From: Candidatus Eiseniibacteriota bacterium
GTDB taxonomy: Bacteria; Eisenbacteria; RBG-16-71-46; CAIMUX01
NCBI GenBank assembly: GCA_903844735.1
Contig: CAIMUX010000005.1
Span: forward strand, 1 to 48,086
DNA: 48,086 bases
Reading direction: 5' to 3'
A program made the translations under genes and the position numbers. Numbering within the stretch: position 1 is the first letter of the stretch; the number at the start of each line of letters is the position of its first letter. Under the pieces are notes generated by a model. That model searched no databases. It had not been told where the DNA came from and saw only the letters and a program-made list of their open reading frames with translations. Shown here piece by piece: positions 21,749-38,236 of this stretch.

Positions 21749-22148
21749 CGATTCCTCCTCCCCATGGGGGGGGACAGTACACCGGCGAGGGGGCGGGGTC
21801 AACGCGGGCGGGCAACATCCGCACCGATCTCCCCGGGGGATCGCTCTCATTGCAACCCGCTGTAAGATAATCGATTCGTAACTATTCAGGTAGCCGGAAG
21901 CCGGAGTTCAGGAGTCAGAATGAGGCCGCTCCTCGACGAGATTGGAGGACCCTTACATGTACGTGAGCGTTGACTGAAGAGTAGCCCCCCCTGCCCACCT
22001 CCTGGCCGAGGGTTTGCCGGGCCGATCCGTCGGACGCTGGGAGGCAGGGTAAGCGGCGGGGTGGCCGGGGTGGCGGGGCGTGACTTGCGACCGCTACGAG
22101 AGCTCCTTACAATCCCGCAGCTTCGCGGAAACGATGGAGGACTGTGCG
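21749..22148. other. Divergent intergenic region between yicC and the peptidase MA gene
   Basis: About 400 bases with no gene. It should hold the promoters of the yicC operon (minus) and of the plus-strand secreted protein. It contains the heptanucleotide repeat copy at 21889-21923 and a G-rich stretch (22000-22080). Confidence 0.6.
21889..21923 (+). repeat. Heptanucleotide repeat element, short copy
   Basis: Five 7-base units GGTAGCC, GGAAGCC, GGAGTTC, AGGAGTC, AGAATGA match the reverse complement of the block at 17885-17940, including its unit order at the AGGAGTC/AGAATGA end. Confidence 0.75.
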
Positions 22149-25100
22149 ATGGATCGAACCGGGACGGGACGGGGCGGGATCTGGGTGGGCCGCGATCAGG
22201 GAGTCAGGCCCGACCAGGGAACCTTGGCCGCGCGGTCCAGGTCCGCCGGTCCGCGCATCTCCACCCGCTGCGACCTCGCGATTCTCGCGGCGCTCGCCCT
22301 CGCCACGGCCGCCATCTCCACACCTGCCAATGCCCAGGACATCAAGCCGAACCAAGCCTGGCGCGTCATCGAGAGCGCACACTTCCGGGTCACCTACGCC
22401 CCGGGGCTCGACTCCCTCGCCGCCCGCGCCGCGGTGGCCGCCGAATCCGTGCGCATCGTGTTGACGCGCGACCTCGGACCACCTCCCGCCGGAAAGATCG
22501 ACCTGGTGCTGAGCGACGATACCGACGACAGCAACGGGTTCGCCGCTCCGTTCCCATCGAACCGCGTCGTCCTCTTCGCCCATCCGCCCGCCGACGAGGT
22601 CCTTCTCGGAGACTTCGATGCCTGGATGCACGGACTCCTCGCCCACGAGCTGACACACATCTGGCAAATGGACCGGGCGGGATGGGCGGGGCAGGCACTG
22701 CGCGTCGTGTTCGGCAGGCTGCCTTCCGGCTGGCCGCTCTTCCCGGTCATCGGGGCTCCGAACTGGTTCATCGAAGGGAACGCGGTGAGCTACGAGACAG
22801 AGCTGACCGGCCGCGGGCGGCTCGCCGGACGCGTTCACGAGATGATGCTGCGGACCGCATTGCTGGAGGGGCACGCCGAGCCGTACGACAGGATTTCCAA
22901 TCCGACCTCCTCGTGGCCCGCGACGAACCGCGCCTACGCCTTCGGCTCCTTGTTCGTTGATCATCTTGCGCGTTTGCACGGTCCCGACGTGCGCGCGATG
23001 CTGACTGCGAGATGCGCGGGTGCCGTGGTCCCGCCGCCGCTCGCCTTCGACCGCGTGGCCGAGCGTACGTTCCGTCATTCCTTTTCGGGGTCGTACCGCG
23101 ACTGGCAAAGGGATCTCGCCGTGCAGTACGGGATGCTGCGCGACTCGCTGACCTCGGCGGGGCTGACCGCCACCGAGGTGCTGGCCGAAGGCGGCGCGTG
23201 GAGCGGACCGACTCGGTTTTCGCCCGACGGACGGTGCCTGGTGTATCACCGGTCCGATTGGCGCAGGCCGGCCATGGCGGTCATCCTTGACCTCGAGTCC
23301 CGGCGCGAGCACGACCTGTGGCGCCACGATGCCGCAGCGAACTACGCTTGGCTGCCCGGCGGCGATCTCGTCACGGCCCAGTCCGAGATCCTTGAAACCT
23401 ATCGTTCCTACTCCGACCTGTGGCGCATTCGACCCGACGGGCGCGCGCGGCAACTCACGCACGGCGCGCGCCTGGACGATCCTGATGTCTGCTTGCGCAC
23501 GGGCGAGGCGATCGCAGTGGAGAACGGGCGCGGGACGACAAGGCTCGTCATGGTCGATCTCGCGAAGGGGCCCGTAATCCGTCGTTTCCCGTCGCCGCCG
23601 GAGGTGGTGTGGGCACACCCACGCTGGTCTCCCGACGGTTCACGGATCGCAGCGGAACGGCTTTCCGACGGAAGCCGCGATATCGTGGTTCTCGACCGCG
23701 ACGGCAACGTGCGCGTGGAAATCACCGGTGACCGGGCATGCGATGCGTATCCCGCATGGTCTGCTGACGGACGGTTCGTCGTCTTCGCCTCGGATCGCAC
23801 GGGGATCTGGAATCTCTTCGCCGCGGCGATGGATGGTCCCGCGGCAGCTCCGGGCACCGGGGTGACGGATGCCGCAGCCGACAGCTCCGGCCTGATGATG
23901 GATGCCGCGGTCGACCGCTCCGGCCTGCCACCGGATGTCGAGGACGTTGTACAGCCAGGGGACGGCTCCCGCGCGACGCCGCATCCACGCCTGCAGCAGG
24001 TGACGAATCTCCTCGGCGGCGCGCTCCAACCGGATGTATCACCGGACGGCAAGTGGATCGTTTTCTCGTCCTACCACGCCGACGGAATGCGGATCGAGCG
24101 GATCCCGTTCGACCCGGCGGCGTGGCGGGAAGCGGCGGCCACGACGGAGGGCCTGTCATCAGCGGCTGCGACGGCAATCACCACAGCGAAGGCGGAAGCG
24201 GCGACGGACGCAAGGACGGAGGCAAGGACGGAGGCGGGGACGGGGACAGAGGCGATGACGGAGGCAGGGACGGAGGTAGGGACAGGCACGTCGAGCACGC
24301 AACTTGCTCCATCCCCGCCGCCGGCTTTCACGTCCCGCCCCTACCACGCCTGGCGTTCGCTGCGGCCGCACTACTGGATGCCCCAGTACCTTGCCGGCAC
24401 GGAAACCGGCGAATACTACGGGCTCAGCTCGTCCGGAGAGGACATGGTGGGGCTGCACCGGTGGAGTGCCTGGGCCGTGACGGAACCACAAAGCGGACGC
24501 AGGCAAGGCGCCGCCGGCTACTCCTGGTCCGGCCTCGGCAACCCGGTTCTGGGATTCAGCGGTGGGCAGACCTGGGACCTGCTCCGGGCGTCCTACAGCG
24601 ACAGCTCCCGCCACACCGCGCGCGAGCGGGAGCAGCGTTTTGCGGCGAGTGCGACCTTCCGCCGACCGCGCCGGCACGGCAGCGCCTGGTTCACCCTCGG
24701 TAGCGAGATCATCCGGCGCCGGCGCATACCGGATCGCGTCTATGCCGACTCACTCGGCGATCCGGTTATGCTGCGATATCCGAACGGGCGGCTCTTCGGG
24801 TTCGGCGGCACCCTGGCCTACTCGAACACGAGCGCGCGATTCTACTCCATCAGCCCGGAAGACGGGGTTACATTCCGTCTCGACCTTCGCCGCCGCTGGG
24901 ACCTCGGCCGGTACCCGACACCCGATCTCGGCGACACCGAGACTCGCGTATCGATGGCCGCCTACCGCGCCGTGACGCGGATCGCCTGGTCGAGGGCCGT
25001 GCTGGCGGCGCGCGCCAATGGGGTCGTGCGCAACGGCCGCGGCGCCTCGTGGGCCGACCTGGGCGGGGTTTCGGAAGGAACGCTCAACCTCGAGATCGTC

Positions 25101-25658
25101 ACCTTCGGCGGCAGTCGCCTCTTGCCGCTGCGCGGCTTCCCTTCGGGAGTCCGTTCCGGCACACGCGCCTGGTCGGCCGGGCTCGAATGGCGGATGCCGC
25201 TGTTTCTGGTGGAACGAGGGCTCGATACTCCGCCGATCTTTCTCGAGCGGACCTGGGCGGTTGCATTCCTCGACGCCGGCGATGCGTGGGCGCCGCAGAG
25301 CCAGGGAGGCAGGCAGACCGGGTGCGGCGGAGGCCCCTGCCTCGACGGTTACACCCTGGATCCGCTGGTGAGCGCCGGTGCCGAGCTGGCACTGCGCGGC
25401 ACTGCTATCCACTGGCTGACCGTTGCGCTGCGGTTCGGCGTCGCCCGGCAGTTGGCGGGTGGGTCCGCGACGGTCACCTACCTGGCCCTGGGCGGCGGAG
25501 GCATCGGGGGAACGGCCCTCAAGCTCGAGCCACGGGCCAGCCATCGGACTCTTCAACTCGGCGAGTCGAGCTTTCCCCCGCGGAGTACACGGCGGGCCGC
25601 ACAGGTCAGCGCACCAGATGCAACCAATCCCCCAGCAGGAAATCCAGCCGCCCGATGA
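22149..25658 (+). CDS. Secreted peptidase-MA-like / beta-propeller / outer-membrane barrel protein
   Basis: The 1169-residue protein's ATG at 22149 has GGAGG eight bases upstream. A signal peptide (ILAALALATAAISTPANA-Q) follows a longer than usual N-terminus. A gluzincin-type metallopeptidase domain carries HELTH (166-170) with a downstream Glu in NWFIEGN (E209). TolB-like propeller repeats follow (GPTRFSPDGRCLVYHR, PRWSPDGSRIAAERL, YPAWSADGRFVVFASDRT, LQPDVSPDGKWIVFSSY). After a low-complexity Thr/Glu/Ala linker, the C-terminal 400 residues look like an outer-membrane barrel (ARTEAG linker to EWRMPLFLVERG). The set suggests a cell-surface protease, substrate unknown. The 3' end overlaps the convergent gene by 53 bases. 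Confidence 0.85.
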   Translation: MDRTGTGRGGIWVGRDQGVRPDQGTLAARSRSAGPRISTRCDLAILAALALATAAISTPANAQDIKPNQAWRVIESAHFRVTYAPGLDSLAARAAVAAESVRIVLTRDLGPPPAGKIDLVLSDDTDDSNGFAAPFPSNRVVLFAHPPADEVLLGDFDAWMHGLLAHELTHIWQMDRAGWAGQALRVVFGRLPSGWPLFPVIGAPNWFIEGNAVSYETELTGRGRLAGRVHEMMLRTALLEGHAEPYDRISNPTSSWPATNRAYAFGSLFVDHLARLHGPDVRAMLTARCAGAVVPPPLAFDRVAERTFRHSFSGSYRDWQRDLAVQYGMLRDSLTSAGLTATEVLAEGGAWSGPTRFSPDGRCLVYHRSDWRRPAMAVILDLESRREHDLWRHDAAANYAWLPGGDLVTAQSEILETYRSYSDLWRIRPDGRARQLTHGARLDDPDVCLRTGEAIAVENGRGTTRLVMVDLAKGPVIRRFPSPPEVVWAHPRWSPDGSRIAAERLSDGSRDIVVLDRDGNVRVEITGDRACDAYPAWSADGRFVVFASDRTGIWNLFAAAMDGPAAAPGTGVTDAAADSSGLMMDAAVDRSGLPPDVEDVVQPGDGSRATPHPRLQQVTNLLGGALQPDVSPDGKWIVFSSYHADGMRIERIPFDPAAWREAAATTEGLSSAAATAITTAKAEAATDARTEARTEAGTGTEAMTEAGTEVGTGTSSTQLAPSPPPAFTSRPYHAWRSLRPHYWMPQYLAGTETGEYYGLSSSGEDMVGLHRWSAWAVTEPQSGRRQGAAGYSWSGLGNPVLGFSGGQTWDLLRASYSDSSRHTAREREQRFAASATFRRPRRHGSAWFTLGSEIIRRRRIPDRVYADSLGDPVMLRYPNGRLFGFGGTLAYSNTSARFYSISPEDGVTFRLDLRRRWDLGRYPTPDLGDTETRVSMAAYRAVTRIAWSRAVLAARANGVVRNGRGASWADLGGVSEGTLNLEIVTFGGSRLLPLRGFPSGVRSGTRAWSAGLEWRMPLFLVERGLDTPPIFLERTWAVAFLDAGDAWAPQSQGGRQTGCGGGPCLDGYTLDPLVSAGAELALRGTAIHWLTVALRFGVARQLAGGSATVTYLALGGGGIGGTALKLEPRASHRTLQLGESSFPPRSTRRAAQVSAPDATNPPAGNPAAR
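23872..23945 (+). repeat. Tandem repeat within the peptidase MA gene (first)
   Basis: Two units of about 36-39 bp encode DAAADSSGLMM and DAAVDRSGLPPD in an insertion between propeller blades. Confidence 0.6.
24195..24300 (+). repeat. Degenerate short tandem repeat within the peptidase MA gene (second)
   Basis: Multiple units of about 12 bp (like GGACGGAGGCAA) encode a low-complexity ARTEARTEAGTGTEAMTEAG linker between the propeller and the barrel. The frame stays open. Confidence 0.75.
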
Positions 25659-26292
25659 GCAGTGACATGCGGCTCATCACCGTGTAGCCGAAGCTCGCCC
25701 CGAAGGTGACCATGAGGAAGAGGATCCCGATGCGCGCCGTCACCCCGACCGCCTTCTTATGCTCCAGCGAGAAGAAGAAGTAGACCAGTCCGGTGAACGT
25801 CCCCACGAAGACAAGCAGAGGATTCCAGTAGGGGTTGAACGGCGGCGGCGGCCACAGATGTTTGTAGAACTCCGCGGTGATGAGCGGGGCTTGGATAGTG
25901 GCCTTCATCTGCTCCAGCGCATTCGACTGCAGGTAGGTGATAAAATAGAGACCGGCGGTCGCCCCCACGATGAATGCCATCGGCCAGCGGGAAATCCAGC
26001 CCACCTTCGGCAACAGTCGCATCAGCATCATCACCCCGAGGACGCCGGCCACGAGATACACGACGCCGCCACCGGGGCCGTGGCCATGGACCAGCGCGGT
26101 CACGACGTCGCGCAGGTTCAAGACCAGCTTCGGCCAGATGTTCTGCCAGAAGAGGCTCACAAACCAGTAGCCGGCCGACACGCCGATGAAGATCGCCTCG
26201 CACACCTTGTAGACCGGGTTGTCCTTGTACAGGAACGAGATGATCCCGAGCGTGAGGAACGCCCCCAACCACACTCCGAAGTCGAGACTCAT
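25606..26292 (-). CDS. Polytopic inner-membrane protein, last gene of the B12-riboswitch cluster
   Basis: The 228-residue protein has about six hydrophobic segments (FGVWLGAFLTLGIISFLY, VVYLVAGVLGVMMLMRLL, WPMAFIVGATAGLYFITYL, LLVFVGTFTGLVYFFF, IGILFLMVTFGASFGYTVM). Between the third and fourth is a hydrophilic loop with LITAEFYKHLWPPPPFNP. I do not recognise the family with certainty. The ATG overlaps the stop of the preceding gene as ATGA, so translation is coupled. The C-terminal 53 bases overlap the convergent peptidase MA gene. It is probably a subunit of a membrane complex with the three genes upstream. Confidence 0.8.
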   Translation of the reverse strand: MSLDFGVWLGAFLTLGIISFLYKDNPVYKVCEAIFIGVSAGYWFVSLFWQNIWPKLVLNLRDVVTALVHGHGPGGGVVYLVAGVLGVMMLMRLLPKVGWISRWPMAFIVGATAGLYFITYLQSNALEQMKATIQAPLITAEFYKHLWPPPPFNPYWNPLLVFVGTFTGLVYFFFSLEHKKAVGVTARIGILFLMVTFGASFGYTVMSRMSLLIGRLDFLLGDWLHLVR

Positions 26293-27140
26293 GGCGCGCC
26301 TCCCGCCGAGCCCTTCCGTCGCGTGAGGAAGTAGGCGAGGTTGCCCACCACGATGAACAGGATCACCACCAAGTGGGCCGCCGCCTGCGAGAGCATGTAG
26401 ACGGTCCCCTTCCCACGGAACCCGCTGATCGCCTCATACTCCGCGGCCCCCTTCATGCCGCCGAGCAACCCCGTGAGCTGCTGCGGCCAGTACGGGTAGA
26501 TCTGCGGCGCCTGCACGGCGGTCGAACCGGAACCGATGGGAACATGGAACCGGTCGCCCGCGAACTGCACCCACTGCAGCGTTCCGGGATCACCGGCCGA
26601 AACATTGAAGAGGTAGGAGATCGCGGTGAGGTCGCGCACCCCCTTCATGATCGGAAACTGTTCCAGCGGCCGCCCGCGATAGTCGCGCGGGAAGATGGCG
26701 GAAATGTCCGAACCCATCCGCTGGATGACCACCTCGTTTCCCGACTGATAGCCGAGATTGACATAGTCGATGCCGTACTGGGGGTTGCGCGCCGCCACGC
26801 CGGGCTCCCGCATCGCCTCGGCGATCGCCAGGTCGGCCTGCTGCGGCCCCTGCGGCCAGAGTCCGACGATGATGACGCGCAGCCCGCGCCCAAAAGCATG
26901 CTTGAGGAACGTCACCGCCATCGGCTGCAGCTCAGCCGCGGTGCCGGGGTCGTAATCGGCGGCGAACATCACCTTGGATCCGGGGGGCAGCGCCTCTACC
27001 GCGTCGTAGATCCCGCGCGCCTCCGGGGTCACGTCGATCTTGAGGTCGCGGTGCATGAAAAGCGGTGCTGCAACCGCTACCCCGACAAAGAGGAAGATCC
27101 AGCGCCGGTCGATCCGTAACAGCAGCTCAAAGAAGCGCAT
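26289..27140 (-). CDS. Membrane-anchored protein with extracytoplasmic alpha/beta domain
   Basis: The 283-residue protein has an N-terminal membrane anchor (WIFLFVGVAVAAPLFM), a middle domain of about 200 residues and a C-terminal membrane segment (AAAHLVVILFIVVGNLAYFL). The middle part begins GIYDAVEALPPGSKVMFAAD and VTFLKHAFGRGLRVIIVGLW, a Rossmann-like pattern loosely reminiscent of GldG-type auxiliary domains; this resemblance is an inference. The ATG at 27140 has GGGAGG seven bases upstream and overlaps the stop of the preceding gene by one base (TGATG). The frame extends upstream to 27266 but that part lies inside the preceding gene. Function unknown. Confidence 0.8.
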   Translation of the reverse strand: MRFFELLLRIDRRWIFLFVGVAVAAPLFMHRDLKIDVTPEARGIYDAVEALPPGSKVMFAADYDPGTAAELQPMAVTFLKHAFGRGLRVIIVGLWPQGPQQADLAIAEAMREPGVAARNPQYGIDYVNLGYQSGNEVVIQRMGSDISAIFPRDYRGRPLEQFPIMKGVRDLTAISYLFNVSAGDPGTLQWVQFAGDRFHVPIGSGSTAVQAPQIYPYWPQQLTGLLGGMKGAAEYEAISGFRGKGTVYMLSQAAAHLVVILFIVVGNLAYFLTRRKGSAGGAP

Positions 27141-27793
27141 CAGTCGCCTCCCAGGTGCGACCGCTCGATCCCCAGGATGAGCCGCAGCGACGTGGCCGCC
27201 GTGCCCAGAGCGATACCGATCATGATGGCCCGCTGTCCGGCCAGGTTCGGAACCTGCATGATCCAATTCGCCACCGAGGAGAGACGGTACTGTTCCGGCA
27301 GAACACCGGTAAGCTGGTCACCCAACGGCACGCGTCCCAGCATCACGAGAACCCCAGCGACCAGCAGGAGGGTCGCCTCCAGGTTGCGTGCTCGAAAAGC
27401 GCGGTAGGCGGCGCTGGCCACGTAGAAGGCGAGCACTGCGAACATCGTCGCCGAAAGAGGGTTATACACGTTCTGGTAGATCCAGTCGAACGGCGTGCCC
27501 GGCTCCTGGAATCGCTCCCCGCTGCTGAAGAAGAAGCCCACAACGGCGGTGGCCAGGAAGCTCACCACCACGATCCCGGCGTACGGCCAGCCCTTCTCGC
27601 GGCGCGCAACCGCGTTCCCCGACACCTTCATCAGGTTCAGCGCCCCGAGCCAGATGGCGAACGCGGTAATGATCGACACGAAGTCGCTGAGCAGGTTCTG
27701 CAGGACGGAGAACGGCCAGTGCGGCACGAAGTACTGGACGATGTAGATGATCCCCACAAGTCCGGTGAGAAAGAGCGGGACGGTTCGCTTCAC
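27140..27793 (-). CDS. Polytopic inner-membrane protein of the same cluster
   Basis: The 217-residue protein starts at a GTG with GGGGGAG just upstream. It has about six membrane segments (VPLFLTGLVGIIYIVQYFV, FVSIITAFAIWLGALNLM, YAGIVVVSFLATAVVGFFF, PLSATMFAVLAFYVASAAY, ATLLLVAGVLVMLG). It ends one base into the next gene. No family could be named. Its tight spacing between the DUF6754-like gene (72 bases upstream) and the anchored alpha/beta protein indicates one functional unit. Confidence 0.8.
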   Translation of the reverse strand: MKRTVPLFLTGLVGIIYIVQYFVPHWPFSVLQNLLSDFVSIITAFAIWLGALNLMKVSGNAVARREKGWPYAGIVVVSFLATAVVGFFFSSGERFQEPGTPFDWIYQNVYNPLSATMFAVLAFYVASAAYRAFRARNLEATLLLVAGVLVMLGRVPLGDQLTGVLPEQYRLSSVANWIMQVPNLAGQRAIMIGIALGTAATSLRLILGIERSHLGGD

Positions 27794-27865
27794 GCTCTCC
27801 CCCTACCCGGCTCGCGCACGCGGGTGACGCCGAAGAGGTGCGGGGCTCGCATCATGCCCTTCCCC

Positions 27866-29239
27866 CTACTCCGCCCGCAGCAGGCGCGTGAAGTCGAAGA
27901 GGTGCAGGGTCTGCACCAAGGCCCCGACCAGCAGCACGAGCAGGATCACCGCCTTGGAAAGATCCTGCCCCTTGATGCTCCCGAGTTGCCGCGGCTCCCG
28001 CGAGAGATAGGCCCCGGCCACGAAGAGTTCCTCGCCGAGAAGGGTGTAGTCGCACGCGGCGACGAAGAACGGCAACTGCGCCGGCTGGGCTGTTCCCGCG
28101 ATCTGGATGGCGCCGATCGAGTTTCCCGTCTCCGCCAGGATGAGGGACTCCGCATAGAAGGAGCCCTGCATGAAAATGGTGGCGGGTTTCTCGCGCACCA
28201 TGATCCCCTCGATGGCGGCGGCATAGCCGAACTGGTCATCCGTCAGATAGTAGACCATATCGTCGTTGTACAACTCGGGCCGGCCTGTCGCGAGATACGA
28301 CTCCTTCACCGTCTCGCGAGCTGCGACCATGACCAGCGAACGGCTGACCGGCACGGTGAGCGACGTCTCGTACTCGGCGGTAAGGCGCGCCACACGCCCG
28401 AGGATGGCGATCCCAGCGAGGGTCTGCACCTGGTCCATGTCCTGCGTCCCGGGGATGTAGAGGATCCTTCGCCCCATCTCGGTGGCGCGGCCGACCGCCT
28501 CGTCCACAGCCTCCAGGCCCGCGATTTTGCGAATGAATATGTTTCCGCCGCGCCGCGCATGCTCGATGTAGTACAGGACAAGGCCGGAAAGCACAAGCAC
28601 CGCAACGAGCATGGAGATCCGCCCGAAATGGAACCATTGTCCCTTCGGCACCGCCGGACCGGCGATCCCGGAGACAGACGCCTCGTTGCCGAGGAAAGAA
28701 GTGCCGGGAGTGAAAGCCCCCTCCTTCAAGCCGACCGCGACCTCTCCCCCGGCCTGAACATCCGTTTCCCCCGTCGCCCGCACGCGATACCAGTAACGGG
28801 TGCCATCGCGCAGCCCCTCGGCATCCAGGAACTCGGCCAGCCCGCGCGGCGCGCGGCCGATCTCGGCGAAGGGGCCTTCCGGCACCGTGGCCCGCAGGAT
28901 GAGATAGCCCGCGAACGCTACATTCTCGCGGGCGTCATCGGGTGAGGGCGACCATCGGATCACGATCCGCCCCCCGTCGTCGTTCGGGGCATCGGCGACC
29001 GTGATGGCCGTGGGCGGACGCATGGCGGAGACAGCGTGCGTCGCGATCACCCCGGCGCGACCCTCATGACCGACCGGGGCAGAACCGGTTGCGCCGGTTG
29101 CCTGGGCCGGGGTGGCGGAAAGAAAGGTGGAGTACACGAACCAGGCGATGAGGAGTGCTCCATACGAGAGAGCGGCGCCGCAGGATCTTGCCCGCACCCT
29201 ACCGGGGGCTGAAGCCTGCCTCCCTCGCCTTTGTGTCAT
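27866..29239 (-). CDS. Fibronectin type III / DUF6754-like membrane protein
   Basis: The 457-residue protein's ATG at 29239 follows GGGGGA. An N-terminal signal anchor (ALLIAWFVYSTFLSA) is followed by an Fn3 domain (PTAITVADAPNDDGGRIVIR, FAGYLILRATVPEGPF, GTRYWYRVRATGE). A membrane segment (ISMLVAVLVLSGLVLYYIEH) leads into a domain of about 200 residues containing GRRILYIPGTQDMDQVQTLA and ETGNSIGAIQIAGTAQPAQL. A final membrane segment closes it (AVILLVLLVGALVQTLHLF). The second domain resembles what I remember as DUF6754, a family of unknown function; this needs a profile search. It is the largest subunit of a four-gene membrane module. Confidence 0.75.
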   Translation of the reverse strand: MTQRRGRQASAPGRVRARSCGAALSYGALLIAWFVYSTFLSATPAQATGATGSAPVGHEGRAGVIATHAVSAMRPPTAITVADAPNDDGGRIVIRWSPSPDDARENVAFAGYLILRATVPEGPFAEIGRAPRGLAEFLDAEGLRDGTRYWYRVRATGETDVQAGGEVAVGLKEGAFTPGTSFLGNEASVSGIAGPAVPKGQWFHFGRISMLVAVLVLSGLVLYYIEHARRGGNIFIRKIAGLEAVDEAVGRATEMGRRILYIPGTQDMDQVQTLAGIAILGRVARLTAEYETSLTVPVSRSLVMVAARETVKESYLATGRPELYNDDMVYYLTDDQFGYAAAIEGIMVREKPATIFMQGSFYAESLILAETGNSIGAIQIAGTAQPAQLPFFVAACDYTLLGEELFVAGAYLSREPRQLGSIKGQDLSKAVILLVLLVGALVQTLHLFDFTRLLRAE

Positions 29240-29378
29240 CTGGTGATCCCCCACATCACGTAACTCGCATCGACTGCATCGCGCTCGCCCCGCCCGAAGC
29301 ATGGACGAGCGAAGACGGCAGCGTCCATCCGCGCGACGACACGCATGTCAGCGCTGCGCCCTTGTTGCACGGACCGCC

Positions 29379-31043
29379 TCACCCTCCCAGCGAGAATTCC
29401 GGGATCGGAACCGACACATCCAGCCGCAGCCCCATCGGCTTCTTGGTGAACTTGGAGGTGCCGTTGATGAGGTATCCCGCGGCCGGTCCCGGCGCGAAAC
29501 TCCCGCCGCGCAGCGTCACCGTCACGTGATCGGGCAAGGTCCAGTCGATGCGGCCATCGATCTCCGTTCCGAGGTCGGTCGACTGGCTGCCGGGATAGAG
29601 AAGGAGAGGATGGGCGGGGTCGGGGTCGCCATACGGGTCATGGTCGTACTCGTTCGGGGTGATCACGCCATCACCCGGTCCTCCGAGATCCTCCCCCAGC
29701 ACAGGCGCGTCCCGCCACGGCCTGAGCGGCTGGGTAGCCCGGAGCATCGTCCACGAAACGCCGACCTTCAGGCTTGGGCGCACCTTGAATGCGACCAACG
29801 CCTGGATCGCCGTGGTGTTTTCGAGGCCTCGGTAGGCCCGCACGTCAGGGTTGGCCAGCCCCTGCGGCGCGATCCCGATATCCTCCAGCGAAAGGCCGTT
29901 CCCCCACACCTCGGTGAGGAACCAGCGCCCCTGGGTGTGCAGCGCATTGATGTTCCCCTCGTCACGGAACGGGTGAGGGTCTCCGGAACCACTCGCATAG
30001 GTGCCGGCCAGCTCTAGGCGTGTACCGGTCCAGGCGAGGCGGCCGTATATGTTCCTCCCCTTGAGATCGCCGTTGTTCACGTCGCGCGTTCCGAGAGGGC
30101 CTGAGCCGGGCCAGAGGCTGTCGCCTCGCACGCGGTCCGCGCCCGACAGAATATCCAGCTCGGCATCGATCCGCAGTGACTTGCCCGCGCGGGAGGCGGC
30201 AATACCGATCACGGTAGCCTGGCTGATGTTCGGCCGGAACCGCGCCTGAAGCTCGTGGCCGTCCGGTAGGAGGGTCGTGCTGTCTGCGTTGCTCCGGTCG
30301 ACGTAGTAGACGGCGAACGGATTCAAGAAAAACCCCTGATTGTCCTTGCCAAGACGCACTTCCCCGAGAAAGAGATCGGCATCGCGACCATCCACGACTC
30401 TCCTCGGAGTGCTCAGCGAGTCGACGCGAGAGAGATCCGCGATCGTCCCGGACTCCGATTCCTTCGCGAAGCCGAACCCCAGCGCCCTGGTCGGGCCGAA
30501 GTCGCGCCACACCTGCAACCCGGGGGCGTCCTCATCGAGAACGAGGAGATTCCCCAGCGCGAACTGTTGCCGGCCGATATACCAGCGCGTCGAGGTCCGA
30601 CGGTGCCGGTACGAGAGGTAGGCGTGATCGACGCGGAGGTCGAAAAACTCTTTCCGCTTCAGGGTCAGGTTTGCGGAGGAGTCCGGCGAGGCTCCAGGGA
30701 GGCCCCACACGCCATGGGCGAGATCCATCTTCATCGTAATGTTGAGGTCGTCGGCCAGGATCAGCCGCGGTCGCAGGGTGAGCCGCTGCGTCCAGAAGGC
30801 ATCGAACTCCCCCTTCCCCGCGGTGTCCGCGCGCGCGCCGAGGAAGAAGTATTTCTGCGAGTAGGCGTCCACCTCGAAGCTGCCCGAAAGCGTCAGGCGG
30901 GACCGAGGCGCGCCCTCCGGCGCTCCTCCGGTCGGAGCTTCCTTTCCGGGGTTGCCCTGACCGTACGCCACTGCGGGAGAAAGCAACGCAGCCACAAACC
31001 CGAGCAGAAGCCCCGCCGCGCCCGATTGCCGTACCAGAATCAT
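29379..31043 (-). CDS. Outer-membrane beta-barrel (alginate-export/porin-like)
   Basis: The 554-residue protein's ATG at 31043 has AAAGGAG seven bases upstream. The signal peptide is AGLLLGFVAALLSPAVAYGQ. The body alternates short amphipathic strands: RLTLSGSFEVDAYSQKYFFL, HAYLSYRHRRTSTRWYIGRQ, GFFLNPFAVYYVDRSNADS, RNIYGRLAWTGTRLELAGTY. The strand style and the WYIGRQQFALG segment recall the alginate-export porin family. It lies 110 bases after the propeller gene in the riboswitch-headed cluster, so it may provide an outer-membrane channel for the same system. The substrate is unknown. Confidence 0.78.
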   Translation of the reverse strand: MILVRQSGAAGLLLGFVAALLSPAVAYGQGNPGKEAPTGGAPEGAPRSRLTLSGSFEVDAYSQKYFFLGARADTAGKGEFDAFWTQRLTLRPRLILADDLNITMKMDLAHGVWGLPGASPDSSANLTLKRKEFFDLRVDHAYLSYRHRRTSTRWYIGRQQFALGNLLVLDEDAPGLQVWRDFGPTRALGFGFAKESESGTIADLSRVDSLSTPRRVVDGRDADLFLGEVRLGKDNQGFFLNPFAVYYVDRSNADSTTLLPDGHELQARFRPNISQATVIGIAASRAGKSLRIDAELDILSGADRVRGDSLWPGSGPLGTRDVNNGDLKGRNIYGRLAWTGTRLELAGTYASGSGDPHPFRDEGNINALHTQGRWFLTEVWGNGLSLEDIGIAPQGLANPDVRAYRGLENTTAIQALVAFKVRPSLKVGVSWTMLRATQPLRPWRDAPVLGEDLGGPGDGVITPNEYDHDPYGDPDPAHPLLLYPGSQSTDLGTEIDGRIDWTLPDHVTVTLRGGSFAPGPAAGYLINGTSKFTKKPMGLRLDVSVPIPEFSLGG

Positions 31044-31153
31044 CCTCGGACTCCTTTCCCGCGCCGATCGGTACCCACCCGAGACGGGGGATTCTTGTCC
31101 ACAACGGCTACGGGGTCCAGTCTCTTCTGTGTTGGCCACCTGAGAGGCTCGGC

Positions 31154-32566
31154 TCAACGGACGATGCGCACGGGTCGAGCCATGGTTCGCCCACGGCCCG
31201 ATTCCAGGCTGAGCCAGTAGACGCCGCTCGGCACAGACCGCCCGGCGTCATCGCGCCCGTCCCAGAGGAGATCGGCATCTTCGCCGGCTTCCTGCAGTTC
31301 GATGGATCGGACCCGGCGGCCATGGACGTCATGCACCTCGAATCGACTCGGCCGGTCCGCTCCCGGCGCGGTCCACGACAGGCGAACCGGTCCGGCGGAT
31401 GGGTTGGGTTTCGCGTCGGCAACCTGCCAGGGTGAACCGGGCACCTGGGAGGTCACAGCGGGGAGGACGACAAGCTCGTTCGGAGGCAGACCGGCCGCCA
31501 GGGGTCCGGCCAGCAGGGCCCCGGTGGCCGCTTCGTAAACCCGAATGCCGGGATTGTTGAAATCGCGATCGCCGAGAAAGAGCTCTCCCGCGGGGTGAAC
31601 CAGAAGATCGCTCAGAACATATCCGCCGGGATTGTAGACCGTACCGGTTCCTTGGCCGGTCGTAGGGTTGAAGGTGAGCAACGCGGTGTTGAACCCGGGG
31701 AGGGAGACGAGGGCATAGCCGCGACTCGCGGACCAGATGGCGAAGTCAATCAGATCCCCGCCCAACGCCGCCTCGGTGACCACGAATCCCAGCGACCTGA
31801 GGGAGACCGGATCCACACGATCGAGACCCGCCGTGTCGATCACGCCGTACTGCCCCGCCTCCGGAACGAGAAGGCAGCCCGTCGCGGAATCGACCTGCAT
31901 CGGCCCGATCGGATTGGTCCCGGCCAGTGCGATCCCCTGCACCCCCGGCGTCGCCGGGTCAGCGTCGACCAGTTGGCGCGTGGTGAGGTCGATCACGGCC
32001 AGGAGCGAAGGCACGACCGGCAGCCACAGATCAGGCCAGGGCTGACGGTGCATCCGTTGCAGTTCTACGAAAAGCCGGTTCCCGTACACTTCCATCCGGT
32101 GCATCTCGCAGAGACCATCGATGTCGGCGAAGGACGCCAGAGAGATCGTGCCCGTCTGTGCTCCCGTCGACGGGTTCACTTCGAGAAGGTCGTTGCTCTC
32201 GTAGCGGGAAACGTACGCGCGGGTCGTGCTGATGATGGCGATATCCTGCGGATTGGATCCGGACCCGACCGAGAACTCGCGGATGACGCTCCAGCCGGCG
32301 GGATCGATCACCTCAACGTTGTCGCAACCAAGCCGATTGACGGCGTAGACCAGACCGCCCTCAACCCGGAGCACAGCGTCGGCGCAAATCGGCGCCAGAT
32401 TCGATTGAACGTTCCAGGGGGGAGCGACCGGCAAGGCGGCGATCGATCCGGTGGCGTAGTCGGTCGTGAGCGCTAGAATCCGGTCCTGGGCGGCAGCCGG
32501 GCTCGTAAGAAGACCGATGAGCGCGGCGGCCGCGGCGGCGGTGCGGTTCTGATGTGGCATTCTCAT
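31154..32566 (-). CDS. Secreted YncE-like beta-propeller with FlgD-like Ig domain (BtuG-like role)
   Basis: The 470-residue protein has a signal peptide (AAAAAALIGLLTSPAAAQ). A beta-propeller follows with repeated strand blocks: LTTDYATGSIAALP, LVYAVNRLGCDNVEVID, NPQDIAIISTTRAYVSRYES, NDLLEVNPSTGAQTGTISL, SLLAVIDLTTRQLVDADP. The last 80 residues are a FlgD-like Ig domain (ADAKPNPSAGPVRLSW, FEVHDVHGRRVRSI, LLWDGRDDAGRSVPSGVYWL). The ATG at 32566 has AAAGGAG upstream and shares one base with the stop of the BtuB-like gene, so synthesis is coupled. In Bacteroidetes a surface propeller, BtuG, partners BtuB and captures B12; position and fold suggest the same role here, without proof of homology. 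Confidence 0.78.
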   Translation of the reverse strand: MRMPHQNRTAAAAAALIGLLTSPAAAQDRILALTTDYATGSIAALPVAPPWNVQSNLAPICADAVLRVEGGLVYAVNRLGCDNVEVIDPAGWSVIREFSVGSGSNPQDIAIISTTRAYVSRYESNDLLEVNPSTGAQTGTISLASFADIDGLCEMHRMEVYGNRLFVELQRMHRQPWPDLWLPVVPSLLAVIDLTTRQLVDADPATPGVQGIALAGTNPIGPMQVDSATGCLLVPEAGQYGVIDTAGLDRVDPVSLRSLGFVVTEAALGGDLIDFAIWSASRGYALVSLPGFNTALLTFNPTTGQGTGTVYNPGGYVLSDLLVHPAGELFLGDRDFNNPGIRVYEAATGALLAGPLAAGLPPNELVVLPAVTSQVPGSPWQVADAKPNPSAGPVRLSWTAPGADRPSRFEVHDVHGRRVRSIELQEAGEDADLLWDGRDDAGRSVPSGVYWLSLESGRGRTMARPVRIVR

Positions 32567-34713
32567 CACTGCTCCTTTGTCCGGGAGGCATCGTGCTCCC
32601 CGGATGCCATTCCGTAGGTGATCTCCGCCAGAAACGAGCGCCCCGGCAGTGGAAACCCGTCCATGTCTTCGATCCGTCGGTCGAACAGGTTCTGCGCCTC
32701 GAATCGCAGGTGGAGCGAATCTCGCAGCAGCGCGCGACCCAGTGAGGCAGCGTGTACGGCGGATGCCGGTGTCCGCTTCTGCGGGCTGTTGTAACGATCG
32801 CGATAGTGGGCCGATCGAGCCGAGATCTCCCAGCGACCGTCCCAGGCGCCGCGGAGCAGGCGCAGCGAAGCGAAACCCTCGCGCCCCGGAAGGGCCGGCA
32901 GTTCCTTCCCGCGATAGGTCACGCTGGGCCCCACGTCCCGGGCCTCCTGCCAGGTAAAGCTCCCCTGCAGCTCGATCGCGATCTTGCCCGCCGGCTCGAT
33001 GCGAGTGAAGCCCGAGGACTCGACACCGCGCACCCACGCGCGTTCCAGGTTCATCGCCTTGACCGTGCGCTGGCTGTTCTGCACCAGCATGACCTGGTCC
33101 TCGACCACGCTTTCGAAATAGGCAGCCTCGAGGCGGAAAGGCGAATCAGGCCCGAACTGGATCCCGGCATCCCACTGGATCCCGTGCTCCGGCCGCAGCG
33201 CCGGGTTTCCTTCCTGCACTCCGTTCTGACCGAACAGCTCTGGAAACGTCGGGAATCGGGCCAGCCGGCCGCGGTTCGCCTTCACAAGGAGTCCGCCCCC
33301 GCAATCCACCCTGGCCCCGAAGGTCGGCCCCTCGTGACGTTGGCGCCGGGGCGCCGACGGCTCCGGCGGCCGGCCCCAACCGATCGGCCCGGCGTAGTTG
33401 TCGATGGCGCGGGCTTTCCGGTACGACGCCTCGCACGTCAAGCGACCGAGCGTGAGGCGGTCCTCCAGGGAGACAGTCTGGTGTTCCCGTGAGCGGGTGA
33501 AGTCGCGGATTCCCCGCAGCCGATCGTACGGCGTCCATCGCTCCGTGCGCCGGTCGATCGTCACGCGCGGTTCCTGCCGCAGGGGCGGGATCACCACAGA
33601 GAACGTCCATCTCCAGCCGGTGTCGACCGTGCGGTTTTCCGTGTCTACCCGGGCCAGACCCACTTCGCCATCCCGGTTGTCAAAGTGATCCAAAACCCAC
33701 TCCCGGTGCACCGCGGCCTCCAGATGCAGCGGCCAAGAGACCGGCAGGCGATCATCGAGAGTGAACTGGTGGCGCGTTCGATCGGTCTCGAACAGGACGT
33801 GGCGCGTCTGGATTGTTTCGGTCCCTGGAACGCCACCGCTGCGATCGAAGCGTTGTCCTGTGTAATCGACGCGGAGGGCATTTCCAAACAGACCCGGTCT
33901 GTGTCGGGCCCGCCATGGCCGCAGCGTCCCTTTCCAAAGCAGTGCCGTGTCCTGAAAACGGTTGTTGGCGCGGCGCTCAATCCGGTCGTCGGCTGTGTTG
34001 TGGAAGTCCGTTCCGTTGCGGTTCAGGTATGGGAAGTCGCCGCGGCTGCGGCGGTGCTGACCGGACACAAATGCCGAGACATCGCCCCGTACGCCCCCCC
34101 ACTGACCGCGGGCGATGGCGGTGCCGAAGCTCCCTCCCGCGATCGTCGAACGGAGCGGCACGGCGATCGCATCGGGCGTCACGAGATTGATCACGCCCGC
34201 CGCGGGGGGCCCACCAAACGACGCGACCTGCGGTCCGCGGTAGATCTCCGCTCGCCCGAAGCTGCTCGCCGGAAGTCGCGCCAGGTCGACGAATCCGTCG
34301 CCGGCCGAGGCTACCGGCACGCCGTCGACACAGATCAGCACCTGTCCCGGCGTACTACCGCGCATGCTGGCAAGCGCAAAGGAGCCCAATCCCCCATGCC
34401 GGTGCACCTGCAATCCAGCCGTGCGATCAAGGATGTCGGTCAGATCCCGCCCCGCGGGAGCAAGATCGCCGAGGACGACCACGCTGCCGAACGCGGACCG
34501 CCGTTCCAGCGCCCGAAGCGGATCCGGCCGCCGGGCGACCACCCGCACCGTGTCGAGAGGCGTCGGCCAGAGTGTCTGGGCTCGTGACGAGGTGGAAACC
34601 AGGGATACGAGCAGGAGCGACGCTGGAACGAGAGCCGCACAGGGGAAGAATCGGGGAATGGCTGACCGAACGGCCGCAAGAGCGGCCATGGGGACACGAC
34701 AGACGAGAGCCAC
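32566..34713 (-). CDS. btuB: TonB-dependent receptor, BtuB-like (cobalamin uptake)
   Basis: This outer-membrane gated transporter has about 715 residues. After a signal peptide (PASLLLVSLVSTSSRAQ) comes a TonB-box-like stretch (LDTVRVVARR), then the plug domain (DLTDILDRTAGLQVHRHGGL, RGSTPGQVLICVDGVPVAS, IYRGPQVASFGGPPAAGVIN) and a 22-strand-type barrel. A cobalamin riboswitch lies directly upstream, which makes B12 (or a corrinoid) the likely substrate. I chose the GTG at 34713, which has GGAGGG four bases upstream; an ATG at 34689 is the alternative, and the frame opens earlier inside the riboswitch. The C-terminus carries an extra hydrophilic tail after the last strand (ITYGM then about 13 residues). 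Confidence 0.9.
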   Translation of the reverse strand: MALVCRVPMAALAAVRSAIPRFFPCAALVPASLLLVSLVSTSSRAQTLWPTPLDTVRVVARRPDPLRALERRSAFGSVVVLGDLAPAGRDLTDILDRTAGLQVHRHGGLGSFALASMRGSTPGQVLICVDGVPVASAGDGFVDLARLPASSFGRAEIYRGPQVASFGGPPAAGVINLVTPDAIAVPLRSTIAGGSFGTAIARGQWGGVRGDVSAFVSGQHRRSRGDFPYLNRNGTDFHNTADDRIERRANNRFQDTALLWKGTLRPWRARHRPGLFGNALRVDYTGQRFDRSGGVPGTETIQTRHVLFETDRTRHQFTLDDRLPVSWPLHLEAAVHREWVLDHFDNRDGEVGLARVDTENRTVDTGWRWTFSVVIPPLRQEPRVTIDRRTERWTPYDRLRGIRDFTRSREHQTVSLEDRLTLGRLTCEASYRKARAIDNYAGPIGWGRPPEPSAPRRQRHEGPTFGARVDCGGGLLVKANRGRLARFPTFPELFGQNGVQEGNPALRPEHGIQWDAGIQFGPDSPFRLEAAYFESVVEDQVMLVQNSQRTVKAMNLERAWVRGVESSGFTRIEPAGKIAIELQGSFTWQEARDVGPSVTYRGKELPALPGREGFASLRLLRGAWDGRWEISARSAHYRDRYNSPQKRTPASAVHAASLGRALLRDSLHLRFEAQNLFDRRIEDMDGFPLPGRSFLAEITYGMASGEHDASRTKEQ

Positions 34714-34750
34714 GGTTCCCTCCGGTCCACGAAAGGGTGTTTCCGCTATC

Positions 34751-34938
34751 CCCACCGGCAGGTCTTCTGGCTCTCGGATCATCCCGGTGGCCGCGCCTTC
34801 CCATCGCGCTGATCCGCGACAGTGGCATCGTGCGGCTCCGGTCCCCGACTACAGCGGCGGGACCGCGACGGCATTTGACCGTCTTCCCTCTTGTCTCCCG
34901 GCTTCGCGCGAACGCGGGGCCGGGGGCGCACCGGTGGG
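34751..34938 (-). promoter_or_regulatory. Cobalamin riboswitch
   Basis: On the minus strand the closing stem is CCCACCGG (34938-34931) with CCGGTGGG (34758-34751), a perfect 8-bp pair. Inside are the conserved blocks GCCGGGAGACAAGAGGGAA, CCGCCGCTGTAGTCGGGGAC, the B12 box GATGCCACTGTC, GGGAAGGCGCGG and the 3' signature GAGCCAGAAGACCTGCC. The 3' end lies 38 bases from the proposed GTG of the TonB receptor, so control at the ribosome-binding site is plausible. It would repress the btuB-propeller unit, and perhaps the whole cluster, when cobalamin is bound. Confidence 0.95.
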
Positions 34939-35057
34939 ATTCCTGTGCGGGGGTAGTGTCCGACGGATGGGGCGGCGCGGTCAAGCGGGATCGGGAGGAG
35001 GCCGGGATCGTCAGAATCCGACCGTCGAGGAAGAACGGGTCTTGGCAATATGGTCTG

Positions 35058-35093: not shown

Positions 35094-35366
35094 ATGCATA
35101 TCACCAGCATTTCCGAAGCCAAGGCGCAACTGTTCTCCCTGATCGAACGGGTGCTCGCCGGTGAAGAGGTGCTCATCGGCGAAGCAGGAAAACCGGTGGC
35201 CAAGCTCGTCCGTTACGAGCGGAGCGACAAGAACCGCGTCCCCGGAGCCTTGAAAGGCAAGATCAAGATCGCGGCTGACTTCGATGTGTTGCCCACGGAC
35301 CTTGCCTGGGCGTTCGGAGGTTCGGTCACGACGAACACCGGCCGCAAGATCTCGTTGTTCGAGTAG
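35094..35366 (+). CDS. Phd/YefM-family antitoxin, apparently orphan
   Basis: The 90-residue protein has the Phd fold N-terminus (ITSISEAKAQLFSLIERV, GEEVLIGEAGKPVAKLV) and the linker typical of PIN-toxin partners (PGALKGKIKIAADFDVLPTD). The C-terminus (GGSVTTNTGRKISLFE) departs from the usual short end after LAWAFGG. AGGAGG lies about ten bases before the ATG. The next 227 bases hold no PIN/VapC or Doc toxin in any frame, so the pair is broken or the antitoxin acts alone or on a distant toxin. Confidence 0.88.
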   Translation: MHITSISEAKAQLFSLIERVLAGEEVLIGEAGKPVAKLVRYERSDKNRVPGALKGKIKIAADFDVLPTDLAWAFGGSVTTNTGRKISLFE

Positions 35367-35593: not shown

Positions 35594-38236
35594 CTACTTG
35601 ACGTGGACCAGTCTCCGCGTCCAGTTGCGATCCTTCATGGAAAGACGGGCGAAATACACTCCCGGTGCAAGATCCTTCCCTTGCGAATCCCGTCCATCCC
35701 AGATGACGGACTGCCCTTCCGCACCGCTCCGGCCGGGCGCCAGGGACCACACCCCGCGCCCGCTCACGTCGAAGATCTCCAGGCGCATCGCCCCCGCCTC
35801 CGGCAACCGGTACCGGAGCACCGTGGCGGCCGAAAACGGATTCGGACTGCACGCCGTGAGGCCGTCTCCTTCACCGACGGCGAGGGAAGGCACGCCGTTG
35901 ACGGCCGCTTCGGAGATCGGCCAGCGCCACGTGCCTATGAAGAGATCCTTCAGGTTCACGTGCGCCGCCGCACAACTCGCAAGAAAGAAGTTGTCCACCG
36001 CCTCCTGGGTTGTCGTTGCGGCGGGACGGGCGGCGCACTCTCTCCACACCTGCTGGACAAAGGCGTCGCCGCCGTAGTCCCGGCACAGCCGAAACAAGAA
36101 AGACGCGAACAGGTCCGTCGCACCAAGACCCGAGGGGTTGTTGGCCTGCGGCTGGCCCACGCGCAGCGTGTTGGACCACGTCTGGGTCGGGTCCGCCAGG
36201 TAGAGGTCGATCATCTCCTCCACCCGGGTCCGGAACTCCGGGAAGGTCCAGCTTCCGAACGGTCCGCCGTTGACTCCGGCGGCGTCCATCGCCATGAACC
36301 GCATGAACACGGCAAATCCGGTGGTGATGGCGCCGTGGTTGTCGCTACCGAGGTACTCGATCTGCGGACCAAGGTGCCAGAAGTTCCGCCCGAATTCATA
36401 AAACACGACTTGGTCGAACTCGTTGTCATCGCGGACCCCGTTGTACAACAGGTCGAAGTAGTAGTTCTGGATCTCGATGCCCGTCGCTCCGAGGTAGGCG
36501 CAACCGGCGCCACACGTGCTGGGCACGTCGGAGATGGTGGTCTTTCCGTTGTAGGACTTGGCAAGCGGGGGGGTGAACCCCGTGGCGCCCTGGTAGTACA
36601 GGTACGCGCTGTCGGTGGCGTCCAGGATTCTGCCCACGGCCGTGTTGTCCAGGTCCCAGCGGCGGCTCTGCAGCACCGTCTGCGCGCCTTCCCAGGCATA
36701 GAGGGAAAGCGATTCTCCGTTGAAATCGACATAGCCGGTGGGCACGGGCGACAGGATCGTGCCGAAGGCACAACCGCTCGACCAGTCGCCGAACCCCTCC
36801 GGGCTACAGAGCGACGGTATGTTGTTGTTCCTGGCCCGGACGCGCCAACTGTAGGTTACGTTCGCGGGAACGCCGATCCAAGTGTAGGTAGTGTCGGACA
36901 CGCTACCGGCGAAGGCGGGTGGGTCGGAACAGTCCGGATTGGTGAAGAGCTCGTACTCGTAGGAGGTGGCGTTGGCGGCCGCGCTCCAGACCAAAGGCAC
37001 GTTTCCGGCCGGGGTGTAGCCACCGCACACTGGTAAGCAGGGCGTGGGCGTCTCCGGGGTTGTGCAAGGAAGCGGGTCGCCCCAGCGGGCAATCCTGGCC
37101 GATACCTCGCCGCCGGCATGCAGAAAGCTCCCCCCGGCGAAAAGCGCCCCGCCGATCGCCTGCACGTCTTCCACGGGACCATCCGTACCGGAACCCAAGG
37201 GTGACCACTGCGTACCATCCCACCTCGCGACGTGGTTGGCCGGGACCGTGCCGGCGTTGGCAAACAGGCCACCCGCGATCAGCGCGTTGTCATAGACGCA
37301 CACCCCGTACACGTTCTGATCCATGCCCGGCCCGAACGCACTCCAGGAGACACCGTTCCAGGAGGCGATCCTGCCCGCGGCGACGCCTCCGGCCTGCGTG
37401 AACTCGCCGGCCACGATCAGATTGCCGTTGCTGATCTCAAAGTCCCGGGGCGTGGCGTTCACTCCGGAGCCCATGGTGCTCCAGGCTGTCCCGTTCCATT
37501 TCGCAATGTGATTCGCGGCGATGCCGCCTGCCTGTCCAAACCATCCACCGGCGATGAGGCTGCCGCCGTAGGTGCCGAGTACCCACACGGCATTGTCCAT
37601 GCCCGACCCGATGGCACTCCACGCGGCCCCGTTCCACCGGGCTACCCGGTTGGCTGCCACGCCACCCGCGGCGTTGAAGAACCCACCCGCGATCAGATCC
37701 GCATTGTAGATAGCCAGCGACAGACCCTTGTCATTGAAGCCTGTACCGATCGCCGTCCACTGGACCCCATCCCACTGCGCGATGTAGTTGACGAGGACTC
37801 CACCCGCATGGGTGAAGAAACCGGTGACGATGAGCTTGGCACCATAGACGAGCATCTCCTGAACCTGGCCATCGAGTCCCGAACCCAGCGAGCTCCACGA
37901 AGATCCGTTCCACGCGGCAATGTAGCTGGCCGGGGTTCCGCCGGCGGAACTGAAGTAGCCTCCGGCAATCAGGGTGCCGTCGAACTCGGCCAGGGCGTAG
38001 ACGGGACCGTTGAACCCCTGCAGACTGAAGCCGTCCCACCATTGGTCATCACGGGAAGGGTAGCCCGTGGCGAAACGGGGGTCGCCGGCGTTGGGCGAAC
38101 TGATGGCGACCGCGCACGGATTCGGAAGAAGGACGTCGGCGGCCACGGGGCCTGTCGCGATCTCTGCCGCGGCCGTTGTCGCGCACAACGTGACGAGAGC
38201 GAAGACGACAGATGCGAGCTGCTTGGATGACGACAT
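35594..38236 (-). CDS. Secreted propeller-repeat protein with Fn3, degenerate metallopeptidase-like and FlgD-like Ig domains
   Basis: The 880-residue protein's ATG follows AAGGAGAAACGTC. The signal peptide is SVVFALVTLCATTAAA. Residues about 60-390 contain roughly seven repeats of about 42 residues, such as IAAWNGSSWSSLGSGLDGQV followed by LIAGGYFSSAGG. An Fn3-like domain follows (NVPLVWSAAANATSYEYELF). The next domain (FDQVVFYEFGRNFWHLGPQI) resembles the HExxH region of M60-type metallopeptidases, but both zinc His are replaced (YEFGR). A FlgD-like Ig domain ends it (CSPNPFSAATVLRYRL, VIWDGRDSQGKDLAPGVYFA). It is probably exported; a binding or structural role is more likely than proteolysis. 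Confidence 0.82.
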   Translation of the reverse strand: MSSSKQLASVVFALVTLCATTAAAEIATGPVAADVLLPNPCAVAISSPNAGDPRFATGYPSRDDQWWDGFSLQGFNGPVYALAEFDGTLIAGGYFSSAGGTPASYIAAWNGSSWSSLGSGLDGQVQEMLVYGAKLIVTGFFTHAGGVLVNYIAQWDGVQWTAIGTGFNDKGLSLAIYNADLIAGGFFNAAGGVAANRVARWNGAAWSAIGSGMDNAVWVLGTYGGSLIAGGWFGQAGGIAANHIAKWNGTAWSTMGSGVNATPRDFEISNGNLIVAGEFTQAGGVAAGRIASWNGVSWSAFGPGMDQNVYGVCVYDNALIAGGLFANAGTVPANHVARWDGTQWSPLGSGTDGPVEDVQAIGGALFAGGSFLHAGGEVSARIARWGDPLPCTTPETPTPCLPVCGGYTPAGNVPLVWSAAANATSYEYELFTNPDCSDPPAFAGSVSDTTYTWIGVPANVTYSWRVRARNNNIPSLCSPEGFGDWSSGCAFGTILSPVPTGYVDFNGESLSLYAWEGAQTVLQSRRWDLDNTAVGRILDATDSAYLYYQGATGFTPPLAKSYNGKTTISDVPSTCGAGCAYLGATGIEIQNYYFDLLYNGVRDDNEFDQVVFYEFGRNFWHLGPQIEYLGSDNHGAITTGFAVFMRFMAMDAAGVNGGPFGSWTFPEFRTRVEEMIDLYLADPTQTWSNTLRVGQPQANNPSGLGATDLFASFLFRLCRDYGGDAFVQQVWRECAARPAATTTQEAVDNFFLASCAAAHVNLKDLFIGTWRWPISEAAVNGVPSLAVGEGDGLTACSPNPFSAATVLRYRLPEAGAMRLEIFDVSGRGVWSLAPGRSGAEGQSVIWDGRDSQGKDLAPGVYFARLSMKDRNWTRRLVHVK

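Follow-up and report, generated by a model that had tools for sequence, protein, structure and literature searches.

Downstream of a cobalamin riboswitch in the window (the entire contig C5, 48,086 nucleotides, from a 5.40-Mb draft genome of a Candidatus Eiseniibacteriota bacterium in 142 contigs, 95.8% complete), we found a line of minus-strand genes that very probably comprises two unrelated units with a barrel gene between them: a B12-capture operon (34939-31154), and a DUF6754 module (29239-25606) that lies outside B12 uptake. The riboswitch, btuB and the propeller gene g2 most likely constitute a BtuB-BtuG B12-capture pair outside Bacteroidota, a reading based upon the conserved pairing of these elements among related genomes and upon searches of the PDB, where the propeller matched BtuG and the receptor matched BtuB. 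From the riboswitch downstream, the cluster contains:

34740-34939, minus strand: complete cobalamin riboswitch aptamer, RF00174 (94.6 bits, model positions 1-189 of 189).
32566-34713, minus strand: g1, BtuB-type TonB-dependent receptor (Pfam Plug and TonB barrel).
31154-32566, minus strand: g2, secreted BtuG-like beta-propeller with a C-terminal FlgD_ig domain; its start overlaps the btuB stop.
29379-31043, minus strand: g3, lineage-restricted outer-membrane beta-barrel with weak porin resemblance.
27866-29239, minus strand: g4, signal/transmembrane segment, Fn3, transmembrane segment, DUF6754 domain and C-terminal transmembrane segment (PF20539, 403.8 bits).
27140-27793, minus strand: g5, polytopic membrane protein that follows g4 in a conserved block.
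26289-27140, minus strand: g6, protein with an alpha/beta domain between two transmembrane segments (AF2 pLDDT 94.7).
25606-26292, minus strand: g7, polytopic membrane protein, the conserved last gene of the block.

The aptamer scored 94.6 bits with the RF00174 covariance model (gathering score 31.5) over all 189 model positions, and a search of the genome found RF00174 at this cluster alone; the preliminary description of a canonical cobalamin riboswitch placed before a BtuB-like receptor was thus borne out, as were its seven consecutive minus-strand genes (g1 to g7) with overlapping starts and stops, and the gaps of 110 and 139 bases around the barrel gene. The overlaps are TGATG for btuB/propeller and for g5/g6, and ATGA for g6/g7; the gaps are 110 bases between g2 and g3, 139 bases between g3 and g4, and 72 bases between g4 and g5. 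Terminator-like sites were not found on the minus strand of these three gaps, nor was a sigma-70-like promoter found anywhere in the cluster region; a promoter or terminator separating the membrane genes from the first two, which the preliminary description had named as evidence against its proposal, did not appear. Pfam recognized the TonB receptor, FlgD_ig and DUF6754 (403.8 bits), and assigned no family to the barrel g3 or to g5, g6 and g7. The leader RNA fold was no more stable than that of shuffled sequences (z -0.96), so folding was left out of the argument on mechanism. The cluster is bordered upstream by a divergent Phd/YefM-type antitoxin gene just before the riboswitch (35094-35366, plus strand) and by a gene for a large secreted propeller protein with an FlgD_ig-like tail (35594-38236, minus strand), and downstream by a convergent PD40-repeat protein gene (22080-25658, plus strand).

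The probable start of g1 is the GTG at 34713, which follows a GGAGGG sequence and lies 26 nt downstream of the aptamer. Both domains of a BtuB, the TonB plug and the barrel, were recognized by Pfam; the score with TIGR01779 was 89 bits against an equivalog cutoff of 599.7, so that g1 is named as BtuB-type and not placed in TIGR01779, the cutoff probably being tuned to proteobacterial BtuB. The best PDB matches of g1 were the BtuB of the Bacteroides BtuBG complexes and E. coli BtuB, and these matches, along with the riboswitch context, point indirectly to a probable corrinoid specificity.

The identity of g2 was assessed by searching the whole PDB with a profile built from 25 propeller domains. 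The top nine matches were all BtuG sequences of Bacteroides (E 5e-6 to 1.7e-5), including chains of 8okv, 8p97, 8bmx, 3dsm and 8baz, and the only further match to E=5 was a hydrazine synthase subunit at 0.004; the BtuG identity of several of the matched entries was confirmed in PMC10404256. At about 29 bits the match is modest, and most of it lies in one blade region. The propeller sequence is thus closest to BtuG, and its gene is linked to btuB and to a B12 riboswitch; the window protein has no lipobox or surface-lipoprotein export signal, for which reason it is called BtuG-like and is not placed within the defined lipoprotein family. The criteria for BtuG also include femtomolar corrinoid binding and a complex with BtuB. 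BtuG is the nearest structural relative of g2, and g2 is predicted to bind B12. The FlgD_ig domain at residues 405-455 was assigned by Pfam and is likely a surface-sorting or attachment domain; a literature search found no paper in which BtuG was combined with FlgD.

The pairing is conserved among the 47 genomes of the phylum that were surveyed. One riboswitch each was present in 39, and a propeller orthologue, counted when full-length or near and with E below 1e-56, in 30; for 25 of these 30 the propeller lay on the riboswitch contig at a distance of 1.6-4.0 kb, and for the other five the riboswitch was on a different contig (three genomes) or was not found (two genomes). The common order at the loci of relatives is riboswitch, btuB, propeller; within G002 the riboswitch immediately precedes the propeller gene. 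Most propeller copies have a signal peptide and a C-terminal tail: an extension after the propeller was seen in 26 proteins, the window g2 (with FlgD_ig) and 25 orthologues. Three copies (L058:4158-5294, L073:4419-5438 and L186:119-1144) have an N-terminal lipobox and end right after the propeller, with no tail; the copy at L063 has the tail and a lipobox-like stretch that was judged ambiguous, and that at L190 is truncated at a contig edge. The alternation of lipid anchor and tail on the same propeller fits the predicted surface display. Four loci from another group of families (L064, L065, L066 and L068, of G012, G013, G014 and G016) were of another kind; there the riboswitch stands before the gene of a small membrane protein that by eye resembles a transporter, with a more distant btuB present and the propeller absent.

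The barrel gene g3 does not belong constantly to the B12 operon, since it was confined to three genomes of one family (G000, G001 and G002, among the 47) and in two of these was placed apart from or opposed to the propeller gene: for G001 it lies on another contig than the propeller, after an SbcC-like gene (by eye), and for G002 it adjoins the propeller gene convergently. The g3 gene has its own GGAG-type ribosome site, and its protein scored 28.5 bits with NF033939, below cutoff.

That no BtuF, BtuC or BtuD is present holds for the cluster and not for the genome, where a BtuF/C/D-like set (PF01497, PF01032 and an ABC ATPase) was found on contig C80 (L039:9396-12534), so that a replacement importer is not needed. 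Among the best named relatives of this set are BtuC, at 235 bits, and a corrinoid ABC ATPase, at 231 bits, both scores being below the NCBI equivalog cutoffs; the C80 proteins may serve for B12, or could carry heme or siderophore instead. A second ABC set, on C129, lies within an apparent hydrogenase gene cluster. Eight B12-binding domains and a single weak, partial match to GATase_3 were detected in the source genome, which fits an organism that uses and scavenges B12.

The genes g4 to g7 were previously suggested to replace or partner the usual corrinoid ABC importer. Pfam found no ABC ATPase, FecCD permease or Peripla_BP_2 domain in them. The g4 protein is a clear member of PF20539 (403.8 bits, gathering threshold 27), a family that proves here to be one component of a fixed four-gene block; the Pfam entry gives no function for DUF6754, and a literature search found no paper naming the family. 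The AF2 model of g4 contains an Fn3 fold, and its fold search returned the Fn3 domain and poor glycosyltransferase-like matches; the fold search of the PDB with g6 gave nothing at E<=0.001, with weak glycosyltransferase-like matches (TM at most 0.36), and PDB profile searches with g4 and g6 found nothing. Homology between the alpha/beta domains of g4 and g6, whose element order is alike by eye, was considered and dropped when profile comparison gave nothing.

DUF6754 occurs in 45 of the 47 phylum genomes, with five copies in the source genome. The copies first examined, within five genomes, all had the order g4-g5-g6-g7 and were without a btuB or g3 homologue; propeller matches at two of these loci cover the FlgD_ig tail. 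The closest copy to that of the window (G004:C110, 80% identity, sister in the tree with support 0.999) is on an 8.6-kb contig from which btuB, the propeller, the barrel and the riboswitch are all absent. A scan of GTDB genomes returned at least 566 module relatives, of which 80 loci outside the phylum were kept, from Zixibacteria, WOR-3/Stahlbacteria, Fermentibacteria, Latescibacteria, Neomarinimicrobia, Cloacimonadota, Planctomycetota and others. The module keeps a strict g4-g5-g6-g7 order, and all four genes were present at 68 of the 80; eight of the remaining 12 are cut by a contig end, which does not account for L086, L100, L103 and L137. A btuB homologue was found within 8 kb at none of the 80, and a cobalamin riboswitch (Rfam RF00174) neither in 32 of the outside loci nor in nine further loci of the phylum. 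The fixed gene order suggests that g4 to g7 encode a membrane complex. For Zixibacteria and relatives, modules were seen two or three head-to-tail (tandem modules at L087, L088, L091, L094, L097, L099, L107, L115, L129, L132, L141, L147 and L150). The 571-aa ORF at L140:13316-15031 resembles a g6-g7 fusion, which suggests that the two proteins may be in direct contact.

Of the 39 riboswitch-bearing genomes, only one had the module at 10 kb or less from the riboswitch. From module counts and genome sizes, the number expected by chance over the 39 genomes, within 6 kb, was 0.08 for same-strand downstream placement and 0.33 for either side, compared to one observed; the arrangement in the window is for this reason mildly unusual and provides no evidence of a functional link, and the module is probably a neighbour of the B12 unit by chance. 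A B12 role for the DUF6754 module was rejected on its distribution without btuB or riboswitch. The preliminary description had named precisely such a wide occurrence as evidence against its importer proposal, which is not supported in view of this distribution, of the BtuFCD-like set encoded elsewhere and of a proximity near chance; the co-occurrence with B12 riboswitches and BtuB that it had proposed to look for came to 1 of 39 riboswitch-bearing genomes, the source genome itself, and to 0 of 80 outside loci for btuB.

The module's own partner seems to be MutL and not btuB. A MutL-family gene (PF13941) was found on the same strand within about 4 kb of a module in 28 phylum genomes, and the order there and in other phyla is small protein, small protein, MutL, lipoyl-like protein, g4-g7; sets of this type, with one or two small proteins, include L054:3272-9911, L051, L117, L121, L130, L134, L155 and L157. 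The MutL gene, the lipoyl/biotinyl-like protein gene and the module are often beside glycine-cleavage genes. A MutL-type set of the source genome (L192:666-4225) is truncated where contig C121 begins, and since it runs into the contig edge, a sixth module copy in this genome is probable. The MutL/GlmL family (PF13941, TIGR01319), found next to a single copy of the module in each of 28 phylum genomes and next to copies in other phyla, is absent at the window module, and the MutL beside the module is below the GlmL equivalog cutoff. We tentatively regard the DUF6754 block as an undescribed membrane complex, composed of the alpha/beta and transmembrane proteins g4 and g6 and the polytopic g5 and g7, in whose probable ancestral form the four genes come after those for an ASKHA ATPase of the MutL family and a lipoyl/biotinyl-like protein, with up to seven copies per genome and a presence in many candidate phyla; the window copy would be a stand-alone paralogue. 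We give this fuller picture somewhat less than an even chance.

Other readings of the cluster were weighed against two separate units. Were all seven genes one B12 regulon, with the DUF6754 module recruited for inner-membrane corrinoid transport in place of or beside BtuCD, the single strand, the short gaps and the lack of a detected terminator between the units would fit; the BtuF/C/D-like genes elsewhere do fall under the equivalog cutoffs, and the gene that usually neighbours the module, MutL, comes from a family that takes its name from accessory proteins of B12-dependent mutases. Nevertheless, the presence of the module near a riboswitch in one genome of 39, the absence of btuB from all 80 outside loci, and four more module copies without btuB in the source genome itself make such a regulon very improbable. 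A weaker form, in which the riboswitch transcript reads into g3-g7 and makes them B12-responsive in the source strain with no role in B12 uptake, we consider rather unlikely. One transcript for all seven genes is possible, as they lie on one strand with gaps of at most 139 bases and no terminator found, and the 110- and 139-base gaps gave no promoter match; against read-through control, g3 carries a ribosome site of its own and is convergent to g2 within G002, and translational control, as suggested by the ribosome site just after the aptamer, would hardly affect distal genes. The early reservation that the riboswitch may control the first two genes only was in this respect well placed, and control of these two by B12 is likely.

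Within the first unit, the alternative is that g2 is a YncE-like surface protein of a general type rather than a BtuG, and that it adjoins btuB but does not bind corrinoid. The modest score to BtuG, concentrated in one strong stretch, and the frequency of FlgD_ig tails on unrelated secreted proteins of the phylum would agree with this; however, nine BtuG sequences headed the matches from the whole PDB, the riboswitch-btuB context is that of BtuG and is kept in 25 genomes, and for G002 the propeller gene is the first after the riboswitch, so a YncE-like protein is unlikely.

For the BtuB-BtuG pair with a separate module, we propose the following mechanism. When B12 is plentiful, the riboswitch would lower the expression of btuB, and that of the propeller would be lowered too through the TGATG overlap. 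A surface-displayed BtuG-like propeller would catch corrinoid and pass it to BtuB, which would use TonB energy to move it through the outer membrane; an ABC importer of the BtuFCD type, with genes elsewhere, would then bring it into the cytoplasm. The FlgD_ig tail may replace the lipid anchor of Bacteroides BtuG, and the second unit, a four-gene inner-membrane module with DUF6754 of which the genome has at least five copies, would have no role in B12 uptake.

The window shares with the Bacteroides systems (BtuB1G1, BtuB2G2 and BtuB3G3) the cobalamin riboswitch, BtuB and an adjacent exported beta-propeller, but there is a single locus, with no BtuH seen and ABC genes not adjacent, and the named relatives of the module lie outside Bacteroidota, with no near match from that phylum; whereas Bacteroides BtuG has a lipobox and lipoprotein export signal, most copies here have a Sec signal and an FlgD_ig tail. 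With the btuB/btuFCD system of E. coli, the source genome shares a riboswitch-controlled BtuB and a BtuFCD-like ABC set; E. coli is without a surface propeller, whereas the source genome has a candidate for one. The BtuG of Bacteroides is a lipoprotein of the cell surface that covers BtuB as a lid (PMC6143338, PMC10404256), and Wexler et al. (2018) found BtuG only in Bacteroidetes by BlastP of 313 human gut strains (PMC6143338). Two things are new here: a probable BtuG-like pair in a phylum other than Bacteroidota, with a different anchor, and the DUF6754 module, which is widespread and undescribed. If the proposal is true, a BtuG-like partner under riboswitch control across another phylum would imply a greater age or a wider distribution of B12 capture at the cell surface, and the propeller would present a natural swap of surface anchor, lipid versus FlgD_ig tail, on the same protein. 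The module once taken for a B12 importer is instead an abundant, unexplained membrane system with MutL as a clear partner to test.
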